Below are positions 3,941 through 6,622 of a DNA stretch of 64,000 nt, one piece after another. Under the pieces are notes generated by a model, which saw only the letters and a program-made list of their open reading frames with translations, did not search any database and was not told the DNA's origin. Every line of letters begins with the position of its first letter. Positions within the stretch are counted from its first letter, which is position 1. The stretch lies in the NCBI RefSeq assembly GCF_003633755.1, contig NZ_RBIL01000002.1:1674001-1738000 (forward strand). Direction: 5' to 3'. Position numbers and translations under genes: made by a program. Origin of the DNA: Solirubrobacter pauli (GTDB lineage Bacteria; Actinomycetota; Thermoleophilia; Solirubrobacterales; Solirubrobacteraceae).

Positions 3941-4834
3941 CTACGCCGCTCGCGTCGCGGCGGGCAATACGCCCGCCGCCCGGAGCGCGGACACGATCGC
4001 CCGCGTCGCCGGAGAGCGGTTGAGCGTATAGAGGTGCACCCCCGGCGCGCCCTCCCCCAGCAGCTCGGCGGCCTGCGCGGTGGCGTAGGCCACGCCGAGC
4101 TCGGCGACGGCGCGCGGGTCGTCCTGGCGGGTCTCGAGCTCGCGGCGCAGCGCCGGCGGGATGGTGGCACCGCACAGGGCGGTGATCCGCTCGACCTGGC
4201 CGATGCTCGTGATCGGGATGATCCCCGGGAGGACGGGCACGTCGACGCCGCCCGCGCGCAGGCCGTCGACGTAGCGGCGGTAGTCGTCGTTGTCGAAGAA
4301 CAGCTGCGTGACGAGCACGCGGACGCCGGCGTCGACCTTCGCGCGCACGTGCGCGAGGTCGTCGGCCCAGCCGCGCGAGTCGGCGTGGGGCTCCGGGTAC
4401 GCCGCGCCGAGCACGCACAGGCCCGCCGCGGCGGCGAGCTCGGTCAGCTCCAGCGACGACTTCACACCGCCCTCGGGTGCGCGCCAGGTCGTCTCGCCGC
4501 GCGGCGGGTCGCCGCGCAGCGCCAGCACGTTGTCCGCGCCGCCCGCGGCGGCCTCGGCCAGCAGCGCGACGAGCTCGTCGCGCGTGAAGCCGGTCGCGGT
4601 GACGTGCGGGACCGCTTCCAGCCCGCGCTCGTGCGCCAAGCGGCGGACGACCGCGAGCGTCAGGTCACGCGTGGAGCCGCCCGCGCCGCAGGTGACCGAC
4701 ACGAACGCCGGCTCGAGCGCCGCGAGCTCCTCGATCGCCGTCCAGAACGCGAGCTCGGCCTCGACCGAGCGCGGCGGGCCGAACTCGAACGAGACGATCG
4801 GCTCGGTCCCCAGCTGCTCGTCGATGCGGGTCAT
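3941..4834 (-). CDS. metF: 5,10-methylenetetrahydrofolate reductase
   Basis: A 297-residue MTHFR: FAD-dependent reduction of 5,10-methylene-THF to 5-methyl-THF, the methyl donor for methionine synthesis. Motifs match the TIM-barrel family: SFEFGPPR near residue 16, SVTCGAGGSTRD, DNVLALRGDPP near 100, and QLFFDND near 182. The length is normal for the bacterial catalytic domain. The ATG overlaps the cysO stop by 4 bases (ATGA), so it is the third gene of a thrC-cysO-metF unit. The SAM-sensing leader upstream of thrC therefore probably also governs metF, which fits feedback by the end product of the methyl cycle. Confidence 0.95.
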   Translation of the reverse strand: MTRIDEQLGTEPIVSFEFGPPRSVEAELAFWTAIEELAALEPAFVSVTCGAGGSTRDLTLAVVRRLAHERGLEAVPHVTATGFTRDELVALLAEAAAGGADNVLALRGDPPRGETTWRAPEGGVKSSLELTELAAAAGLCVLGAAYPEPHADSRGWADDLAHVRAKVDAGVRVLVTQLFFDNDDYRRYVDGLRAGGVDVPVLPGIIPITSIGQVERITALCGATIPPALRRELETRQDDPRAVAELGVAYATAQAAELLGEGAPGVHLYTLNRSPATRAIVSALRAAGVLPAATRAA

Positions 4835-5106
4835 CCGCCCGCCACCGCCGGGAGGATCGTCACCTCGTCGCCATCGGACACCGACGTGTCCAGGCCGTCG
4901 AGGAAGCGGATGTCCTCACCCTTGAGGTAGACGTTGACGAAGCGCCGGAGCGAGCCGTCGCCGTCGGCGATCCGCTCACGCAGCTCGTTGTGCTCGGAGT
5001 AGAGCCCGTCGAGCGCCTCGCCGACCGTGCCCCCTTCGACCGTCACCGAGGTGTTGCCGCCGGCCGCGTCGCGCAGCTGCGTGGGGAGCTTGACCGTGAC
5101 CGCCAT
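4831..5106 (-). CDS. cysO: CysO-like ubiquitin-fold sulfur carrier protein
   Basis: A 91-residue MoaD/ThiS-family beta-grasp protein ending in a bare Gly-Gly, the site of thiocarboxylate formation. The segment RFVNVYLKGEDIRF and the tail DEVTILPAVAGG closely resemble mycobacterial CysO, which donates sulfide to CysM for cysteine synthesis. CysO there is exposed after removal of extra residues by Mec; here the protein already ends at GG. It sits between thrC and metF, only 3 bp after the thrC stop. A MoaD-type carrier next to threonine synthase recurs in Actinobacteria. Whether its acceptor is a CysM enzyme elsewhere or another sulfur-transfer step cannot be told from here. Confidence 0.85.
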   Translation of the reverse strand: MAVTVKLPTQLRDAAGGNTSVTVEGGTVGEALDGLYSEHNELRERIADGDGSLRRFVNVYLKGEDIRFLDGLDTSVSDGDEVTILPAVAGG

Positions 5107-5109
5107 GGC

Positions 5110-6339
5110 TTACACCCCCACCGGAGCGAAGTGCTCGTCGAAGGCGTCGATGTCCGCCGGGATCGTGGTGACCTCGAACGTGTCGCGGACGGCGTCGATC
5201 GTCTTCAGGCCGTCGCCGGTGACCATCGCCACCACGCGCTCGTCCGCGCCGATGTCGCCGCGGGCGGCGAGCTTCGCCAGCGTCGCGATCGTGACGCCGC
5301 CGGCGGTCTCGGTGAAGATGCCGGTCGTCTCCGCGAGCAGGCGGATGCCGGCGCGGATCTCGTCGTCGGTGACCGAGTCGATGCTGCCGCCGGTGCGGCG
5401 CGCGAGCTCGACCGCGTACGGGCCGTCGGCCGGGTTGCCGATCGCGAGCGACTTGGCGATCGTGTCCGGCTTGACCGGCTTGCAGACGTCGGTGCCCGCC
5501 TCGAAGGCCGTGGCCACGGGCGAGCAGCCCAGCGCCTGGGCGCCGTTCATCGTCGGCACCTCGCCCTCGACCAGCCCGGCGTCGATGAACTCCTGGAAGC
5601 CGCGCGCGAGCTTGGTGAACTGCGAGCCGGACGCGATCGGGCCGACGACGCGGTCCGGGAGCTCCCAGCCGAGCTGCTCGACGGTCTCGAACGCGAGCGT
5701 CTTGGAGCCCTCGGCGTAGTACGGCCGCATGTTGATGTTCACGAACGCCCAGCCCGGCCGCTCGCCCGAGACCTCGGTGCAGAGCCGGTTGACGTCGTCG
5801 TAGTTGCCCTTGACGGCGACGATCTGCGCGCCGTAGGCGCCCGTGGCGAGGATCTTCTGCTCCTCGAGGTCGTGCGGGATCAGCACGTAGGCGGGCAGGC
5901 CGGCGGCCGCGGCGTGCGCGGCGACGGCGTTGGCGAGGTTGCCGGTCGAGGCACACGCGAGCGTGTCGAAGCCGAGCTCCTTGGCACGCGCCAGGGCGAC
6001 GGACACGACGCGGTCCTTGAACGAGTGCGTCGGGTTCGCCGTCTCGTTCTTGATGTAGACCTCGCGCAGGCCGAGCTTGGCGGCGAGGCGGTCGGCCTTC
6101 ACGAGCGGCGTCCAACCCGTCGGCAGCGCGCTGCGCGCCGGACCCTCGAGCGGCAGGAAGTCCGCGTAGCGCCACATCGTGTGCGGCCCGGCCTGGATCT
6201 TGCGGCGCAGCGACTCCGGGTCCCCCTCGGGCAGCGTGTAGCTGACCTCGAGCGGACCGAAGCAGCGCTCACAGACGAAGCGCGCCTCGAGCGGGTACTC
6301 GGTCTTGCATTCCTTGCACTTCAGGGCATCAGCCGGCAT
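5110..6339 (-). CDS. thrC: Threonine synthase
   Basis: A 409-residue PLP enzyme converting O-phosphohomoserine to threonine. It has an N-terminal zinc-ribbon-like segment (CKECKTEYP then CERCFGP, residues 8-30), the PLP-lysine motif PTHSFKDR with Lys near 108, the phosphate-binding ASTGNLANAVAAH, and a serine/glycine-rich PLP loop. The start ATG at 6339 is chosen because GGAGG lies about 11 nt upstream; an in-frame ATG at 6393 would put coding sequence into the riboswitch expression platform. It is the first gene of the thrC-cysO-metF unit. Because homoserine feeds both threonine and methionine, control of this enzyme by SAM would bear on flux partition. Confidence 0.95.
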   Translation of the reverse strand: MPADALKCKECKTEYPLEARFVCERCFGPLEVSYTLPEGDPESLRRKIQAGPHTMWRYADFLPLEGPARSALPTGWTPLVKADRLAAKLGLREVYIKNETANPTHSFKDRVVSVALARAKELGFDTLACASTGNLANAVAAHAAAAGLPAYVLIPHDLEEQKILATGAYGAQIVAVKGNYDDVNRLCTEVSGERPGWAFVNINMRPYYAEGSKTLAFETVEQLGWELPDRVVGPIASGSQFTKLARGFQEFIDAGLVEGEVPTMNGAQALGCSPVATAFEAGTDVCKPVKPDTIAKSLAIGNPADGPYAVELARRTGGSIDSVTDDEIRAGIRLLAETTGIFTETAGGVTIATLAKLAARGDIGADERVVAMVTGDGLKTIDAVRDTFEVTTIPADIDAFDEHFAPVGV

Positions 6340-6350
6340 GTGATTTGAAT

Positions 6351-6374
6351 CCTCCGCCCGGGTGTGCGGCGGAG
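6351..6374 (-). promoter_or_regulatory. RBS-masking hairpin (riboswitch expression platform)
   Basis: In the minus-strand RNA, CTCCGCC (6374-6368) can pair with GGCGGAG (6358-6352). The 3' arm contains the thrC Shine-Dalgarno GGAGG (6355-6351), which lies about 11 nt before the start codon. No U-rich run follows, so this looks like translational rather than transcriptional control. It lies directly downstream of the SAM aptamer. Confidence 0.7.
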
Positions 6375-6407
6375 TCTTCTTCGGCAGATGCACCGGGTGA
6401 ACCCCAA

Positions 6408-6528
6408 CCGCATCTCCCAGGCTTTCTCGTTGGAGCCTGATGGAATTGCCACCTTCTTCCCGGCGTGCGACCGGGAGCAGGTTGGCGGGGGTTCATAGGG
6501 CCAATCCCTCCCCCCCTCTGGATGCGTC
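6408..6528 (-). ncRNA. SAM-I (S-box) riboswitch aptamer
   Basis: Read on the minus strand, the leader contains the hallmark SAM-I core in order: GAGGGA-UUGGCCC, AUGAACCCC, a CCAACC segment, a variable P3 hairpin, then AAGGUGGCAAUUCC, and a P4 hairpin from AGGCUCC to AAGCCU. The closing helix P1 pairs GCAUC (6526-6522) with GAUGC (6414-6410). In the family these conserved blocks form the kink-turn and the SAM pocket. It lies upstream of thrC-cysO-metF, with an RBS-masking hairpin between aptamer and start codon. A TACGCT element (minus, 6549-6544) could be the -10 of the leader. SAM-I/IV-type variants cannot be told apart by eye. Confidence 0.85.
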
Positions 6529-6622
6529 CAGCTATGTGTCGGAAGCGTAGCGAATTTCCTTGAGCCGCGAAGTAGACTCTGGGAAATGCTGCCCCCGACC
6601 GACGATCCGCTCAGTCCCGGCT

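Follow-up and report, generated by a model that had tools for sequence, protein, structure and literature searches.

Introduction

In Streptomyces, MetM was described as a homocysteine synthase that converts O-phosphohomoserine (Hasebe et al., 2024, as cited in the consulted part of PMC12172450). In the same part of that source, metO of this system is annotated as a sulfur carrier and a SAM riboswitch is located upstream. It also describes a ThrC of Microcystis, 51.6% identical to MetM, that showed threonine synthase and deaminase activity in vitro, and reports that methionine did not increase (PMC12172450). Homology does not settle the function of metM-like genes.

The window, i.e. the whole 64,000 nucleotide stretch of Solirubrobacter pauli analyzed here, shares a threonine-synthase-like gene, metO and an upstream SAM riboswitch with the Streptomyces MetM-MetO system as far as it is described in the consulted part of PMC12172450. 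It differs from MetM-MetO of Streptomyces albulus in that metF is the third gene, in that it belongs to another class of the phylum and in the presence of metY-metX in the genome. The S. albulus work of Hasebe et al. from 2024 (reportedly Appl Environ Microbiol 90:e01247-24) is said to involve a MetO thiocarboxylate, with metO downstream of metM. The named Streptomyces loci compared here have the same layout as the window and encode proteins 54-57% identical to that of the window, the S. albulus MetM being matched by description.

Two further sulfur carrier systems are related. In mycobacteria, CysO and CysM function in cysteine synthesis, and the PLP-dependent partner in the CysO-CysM pair belongs to the same superfamily as MetM. 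The MetO of the window falls into the same sulfur-carrier family as the carrier of the M. tuberculosis CysO-CysM-Mec route, but its partner is ThrC-like and no cysM or mec was seen in the unit. In Wolinella, a protein thiocarboxylate reportedly donates sulfur for homocysteine, and the enzyme is said to be MetY-type and not ThrC-like. A protein thiocarboxylate donor is likewise proposed for the window, but with a ThrC-like enzyme. The Wolinella route (Krishnamoorthy and Begley, 2011) is cited in the consulted part of PMC5764234, according to which one or more routes to homocysteine still awaited discovery, with Acidimicrobium among the organisms named (Price et al., 2018).

Here, we propose that a SAM-I riboswitch in the window very probably exerts feedback control on a methionine operon, metM-metO-metF, in which MetM would make homocysteine.

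Results

A SAM-I riboswitch precedes a probable metM-metO-metF unit

To characterize the leader, the whole window was subjected to cmscan, and SAM-I (RF00162) was the sole match at the gathering score. A complete SAM-I (S-box) aptamer was found on the minus strand at 6407..6528, covering model positions 1-108 of 108 with 79.5 bits (E 4.4e-17; gathering cut-off 44.4). SAM-IV and SAM-I/IV were considered as identities and rejected, as cmscan, keeping the best family of the clan, returned SAM-I. The first-pass annotation had called a SAM-I riboswitch within 6340-6550 and quoted its S-box core strings; covariance-model scoring bore out the call, the strings are present in the window sequence, and the span contains both the aptamer and the expression platform, on the minus strand. 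In a scan of the 7.1 Mb genome this was the only copy found.

The window aptamer matches RF00162 over its full length; it differs in a platform that lacks the terminator U-run and in one P3 pair swapped to C-G. Both strings used to read this pair, (G)CAACC...GGUG(C), were found in 70 leaders including the window (5 of 75 leaders were unmatched), and the pair was C-G in the window alone and G-C in 69 of the 70 readable leaders. As both sides are altered, the swap is a compensatory change.

The riboswitch is followed on the minus strand by three genes. The first, metM-like gene (5110..6339) encodes a protein of 409 aa of the threonine synthase family (PF00291, TIGR00260) with an N-terminal CxxC..CxxC and the motif NPTHSFKDRV. 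The metO-like gene (4831..5106) begins 3 bases after the metM stop and encodes a sulfur carrier of the CysO/MoaD/ThiS family (PF02597, NF041918) with 91 aa and a Gly-Gly end, and the start of the metF-like gene (3941..4834; methylenetetrahydrofolate reductase, 297 aa, PF02219 253.9 bits) overlaps the metO stop (ATGA). This spacing agrees with the tight unit of thrC-, CysO- and metF-like genes that had been annotated before. A second methylenetetrahydrofolate reductase is encoded elsewhere, so that the window metF is one of two in the genome. No match to the window MetF was detected near metM in 74 loci of the class, 60 of the phylum and 80 of Streptomyces, with flanks that differ in length; in the 80 Streptomyces loci only the proteins P0001 and P0002 gave matches, and MetF gave none. 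Among the loci compared, metF as third gene is particular to the window.

The metM-like protein is separated from canonical threonine synthase

The closest solved sequences of the metM-like protein are threonine synthases, and it reached 294.1 bits with TIGR00260 (cut-off 167.1). Another ThrC of this genome (L003, at G000:C1:3958810) shares 40% identity with the window protein. Its gene belongs to a hom-thrC-thrB operon, the products of which scored 433, 296.7 and 205.8 bits with the respective models for homoserine dehydrogenase, thrC and thrB, all above the model cut-offs. Since the TIGR00260 scores of both copies are nearly equal, this model does not separate the two. Both proteins belong to the same superfamily and exceed the cut-off; unlike the window protein, canonical ThrC has no CxxC..CxxC, carries NPT[G/C]SFKDRGMT, is encoded beside hom and thrB and is not preceded by SAM-I. 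Judged by its sequence, the window 'thrC' is a paralogue of the canonical thrC of the genome.

To place the protein among its relatives, a tree of 64 rows was calculated, including 18 of 72 metM-like proteins of the class, 20 of 60 of the phylum, 4 of 80 of Streptomyces, all 15 canonical ThrC and all 6 other ThrC-like proteins; L054 and L109, which have broken frames, were dropped before the motif count and the tree. The canonical ThrC formed one clade (15/15, support 100/100), and a branch supported with 100/99 set it apart from the window protein, which grouped with the metM-like proteins and those of Streptomyces. Four of the six other ThrC-like rows lay on the same side of this branch as the window protein, and the placement of L306 and L307, which have long branches, is unsure.

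An N-terminal CxxC..CxxC was absent from all 15 canonical ThrC, of which 14 carry NPTGSFKDRG and one NPTCSFKDRG. Among the metM-like proteins, CxxC..CxxC and NPTHSFKDR were found in 70 and 72 of the 72 from the class, respectively, and in 80/80 each from Streptomyces. CxxC..CxxC is also present in 6/6 other ThrC-like proteins. In 60 metM-like proteins from outside the class, the histidine position held histidine in 22, glycine and asparagine in 11 each, and other residues in 16. The histidine of NPTHSFKDR is thus not general, and glycine as in canonical ThrC occurs in 11/60 outside the class.

The first-pass annotation had named threonine synthase as the first gene of the unit, which is unlikely in view of the separate hom-thrC-thrB operon and the position of the protein on the MetM-like side of the tree. 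A second genuine threonine synthase, repressed by SAM so that O-phosphohomoserine is shifted between threonine and methionine, would agree with the TIGR00260 score of the window protein, with its closest solved sequences and with the threonine synthase activity of the Microcystis homologue described in the consulted part of PMC12172450. However, a canonical thrC is already present in the hom-thrC-thrB operon of the same genome, SAM-I or T-box control and an adjoining sulfur carrier suit methionine, and repression of ThrC at high SAM would push phosphohomoserine towards methionine, which has the wrong sign for feedback; we consider this very unlikely. It is quite unlikely, too, that the enzyme is bifunctional and makes both homocysteine and threonine, in dependence on the MetO thiocarboxylate and with their sum controlled by SAM. 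The first half-reaction is common to the threonine-synthase-like family. Both activities are discussed for the Microcystis homologue in the part of PMC12172450 that was consulted, but the genome holds a separate canonical thrC and the motif differs, with NPTHSFKDR in 72/72 proteins of the class versus NPT[G/C]SFKDR in 15/15 canonical ThrC, a position that varies outside the class. A homocysteine-forming MetM is the reading we prefer.

Apart from the metM-like proteins, the ThrC-like proteins L302, L303, L304 and L305 also carry an N-terminal CxxC..CxxC and are not part of the canonical clade. Two of them, L304 and L305, form a deep branch of their own.

Sulfur carrier genes adjoin metM

A MetO-like gene adjoins the metM-like gene in 55 of 74 loci of the class and 45 of 60 of the phylum, and in the named Streptomyces loci a sulfur-carrier gene is located just downstream of metM in 80/80. 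In families f7, f10 and f11 MetO was not adjacent (17/17 loci), and a homologue was found elsewhere in all 13 of these genomes that were searched. Beyond MetO, the downstream genes of L073, L085, L091, L096 and L098 had nothing general in common: L073 is followed by NTP transferase and epimerase family genes, while the genes downstream in L085 and L091 gave no Pfam match. Two SAM-I-led metM-like genes of f7 without metO have other neighbors, as L098 is followed by aconitase- and isopropylmalate-dehydrogenase-family genes and L096 by a chorismate-mutase-family gene.

The closest solved relative of the metO-like protein is 3dwg_C (E 1.6e-22), which we take to be CysO of M. tuberculosis. This relationship would fit a CysO-like protein that serves cysteine synthesis and shares with the operon only the regulation of sulfur metabolism. 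Such a role is highly improbable, as by eye the unit contains no cysM- or mec-like gene, a second CysO homologue is encoded elsewhere in the genome, and the carrier adjoins metM in all 80 named Streptomyces loci; sulfur delivery by MetO to MetM remains our preferred reading. The second CysO-like gene is located at G000:C1:4150135-4150398, and its product is 48% identical to the window MetO-like protein.

The riboswitch is linked to metM-like genes across relatives

Among the matches listed, SAM-I was found in at least 130 of 199 genomes of the class and metM-like genes in at least 110 of 199, some of them broken or cut by contig ends. A SAM-I was located at most 400 bp upstream and on the same strand of 108 of the 110 listed metM-like genes of the class (median 79 bp), and the remaining two genes lie at contig edges, with their first base at contig position 5 and 1, respectively. 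Of 150 SAM-I places among the matches listed, 42 do not adjoin metM. Eleven of 11 PF01053 genes of the class, hand-picked as near SAM-I, start 102-135 bp after it, and in G093 a SAM-I is situated ahead of a MetH-type gene. Therefore, other targets in the class are methionine genes as well.

Of 396 genomes sampled across the phylum, 139 gave metM-like matches at E 1e-70 or better. The class of the window accounts for 31 of them; from the 108 genomes outside the class 60 loci were fetched. SAM-I was present 18-275 bp upstream in 41 of these 60 loci. Three of the other 19, from genomes of other families, harbor a T-box before metM in place of SAM-I (L202:328-626, L205:226-611 and L152:375-643), of which that in L202 scored above the gathering score and the two others below it (90.6 and 75.1 of 93 bits). 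All three T-boxes carry GAAC-AUG at the specifier place, presumably a methionine specifier as read from the model layout of L202. No recognized SAM-I or T-box leader was detected in the remaining 16 of the 60 loci outside the class. When 18 leaders without SAM-I were scanned, one cspA-type match far below the score and one CRISPR-repeat match (E 0.47) were obtained. Leaders of metM with neither SAM-I nor T-box include L155-L159 and L165-L168 (two families), with the cspA-type match in L167 (45.9 of 78 bits).

In the named Streptomyces loci, 20 of 80 were scanned and SAM-I was found in 20/20; another SAM riboswitch class in Streptomyces was thus rejected for the scanned loci. Independent support for the assignment as MetM comes from its tight association with SAM-I or with a T-box that presumably carries a methionine specifier.

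metM-like genes and other homocysteine enzymes are complementary

To analyze which genomes have other routes to homocysteine, PF01053 matches better than E 1e-30 were counted as metB/metC/metY-type enzymes, using only the matches listed. Among 156 genomes at least 90% complete, 38 had metM only, 59 both, 58 PF01053 only and one neither. Among the 79 at least 95% complete, the numbers were 19, 36, 24 and 0, a complementarity that depends on assigning matches with E above 1e-30 to other PLP enzymes. Fisher p values for these splits take no account of kinship and were given no weight. At its own cut-off (27 bits) PF01053 gave some match in at least 176 of 199 genomes of the class, and the weak matches were therefore taken as other PLP enzymes. 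Genomes without a strong metB/metC/metY-type match retain metM, which argues further against a second threonine synthase and suits a homocysteine-forming MetM.

A full-length MetX was not found in the 19 metM-only genomes (the top match reached 31.8 bits across some 50 positions; the model cut-off of 500 bits was reached by no genome, controls included). No HcyBio/DUF39 was detected in these 19 genomes, all at least 95% complete. Ten of them (families f1-f4) have ThrB, nine above the cut-off and G127 at 167.8 versus 168.25 bits, and nine of these ten have the MetH N-domain. The nine f9 genomes gave only weak ThrB matches, the best of which (G018, 56.2 bits) spans most of the model, so that a divergent kinase is possible; no MetH N-domain was found in them. 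Canonical ThrC is present in f9 where it was looked for (L294, L296 and L309). The near-complete f9 genomes G006, G012, G018, G024, G030, G036, G042, G048 and G072 thus have metM and no strong match to ThrB, MetX, PF01053 or the MetH N-domain.

The window genome itself has a pair of genes for O-acetylhomoserine sulfhydrylase and MetX with 596.7 and 366.5 bits, above the cut-offs of TIGR01326 and NF001209. This metY-metX pair is located at G000:C1:3411588-3414353 (L113:6589-9354), the genes being close together with no SAM-I before them. The pair appears to give the genome another path to homocysteine that is regulated differently. Because metY and metX are also present, the MetM route is probably one of two in this genome.

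A hairpin covers the ribosome binding site of metM

The Shine-Dalgarno sequence of metM, GGAGG (6351..6355, minus strand), sits 11 nt ahead of the ATG at 6339. It is covered by a platform hairpin at 6352..6374 on the same strand, CUCCGCC-9 nt-GGCGGAG, which forms a 7-bp G+C-rich helix with a 9-nt loop (-14.2 kcal/mol alone). In folding, the predicted unpaired probability of GGAGG was at most 0.001 for the first four bases and 0.998 for the fifth. Of 24 leaders fetched from the family, 20 were aligned with the window (A1; L040, L051, L054 and L057 were left out). In these 21 leaders the blocking helix was paired in 96.3% of cells, compared with 58.7% or less after a shift of 1-3 columns, and three pairs had changes on both sides. 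A hairpin burying the thrC GGAGG had been proposed before; it does cover the site, and both aptamer and hairpin are kept in relatives. With this and the strong covariance-model match, neither outcome that would have refuted the first-pass annotation was seen.

In the window the hairpin has no downstream U-run (GGCGGAGG-AUUCAAAUCAC-AUG), for which reason the platform is inferred to act on translation; the hairpin probably blocks translation. A U-rich stretch follows the same arm, ending just 5' of the ATG, in 9 of the 21 family leaders as seen by eye, and hairpins with U-runs are located 20-77 nt before the ATG in other families including f2, f4 and f9 (11 rows flagged). In some relatives the hairpin is terminator-like. 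No sigma-70-like promoter was found by consensus.

As a partner for opening, we propose that the P1 3' strand UGCGGU (6407..6412, minus strand) may pair with its 6-bp complement GCCGCA (6365..6370, minus strand), which overlaps the 5' arm and the loop of the blocking hairpin. Equivalent complements of the P1 strand recur among the leaders of relatives, counted in the 50 of 75 loci in which the leader finder found both strings and in the manually included window. Covariation of the UGCGGU/GCCGCA helix was weak: one pair was changed on both sides, in the window only, 27 of 500 shuffles were as high, and a slide of +2 gave a higher covariation score. In folding, the blocking hairpin persisted in the free (-99.5), P1-forced (-97.0) and P1-blocked (-95.4 kcal/mol) states, and was removed only by forcing the opening helix (-93.5, a cost of 6 kcal/mol). 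The first-pass annotation had suggested folding with and without ligand; the blocking hairpin was recovered in all three states but a switch between folds was not, and folding alone reveals no switch in the window leader.

Discussion

The operon of the window most likely belongs to a known kind, as a MetM pathway has been described for Streptomyces since 2024, and represents a well-supported further case of it. In the proposed pathway, MetM would take O-phosphohomoserine out of the threonine pathway and make homocysteine with sulfur delivered by the MetO thiocarboxylate, and MetF would contribute to providing the methyl group of methionine. At high SAM levels, binding of SAM would keep P1 closed, CUCCGCC/GGCGGAG would mask the ribosome site of metM and translation of the unit would drop. 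When SAM is scarce, base pairing between the P1 3' strand and the GCCGCA of the hairpin may free the ribosome site. Because of the paralogy with thrC, the conservation of SAM-I or T-box control and the complementarity with other routes, SAM probably shuts the methionine branch and not threonine synthesis. The earlier suggestion that SAM acts at the homoserine phosphate branch was right in direction.

These results would mend a likely misannotation, from threonine synthase to homocysteine synthase, of a protein to which TIGR00260 gives nearly the score of the true ThrC of its genome. Genes of the metM-like type occur in at least 110 of 199 genomes of the class. MetM is also a candidate for gaps in methionine pathways such as those described in the consulted part of PMC5764234 (Price et al., 2018).

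A wider reading, about as likely as not, is that in much of the class the SAM-I-controlled MetM-MetO pair may be the sole recognizable route to homocysteine, with family f9 additionally needing an unrecognized homoserine kinase or another substrate. In the window, one leader would then command the carbon acceptor, the sulfur donor and the methyl supply (metM, metO and metF) in a single transcript, and the terminator hairpin of relatives would have been turned into a blocker of the ribosome site by loss of the U-run.
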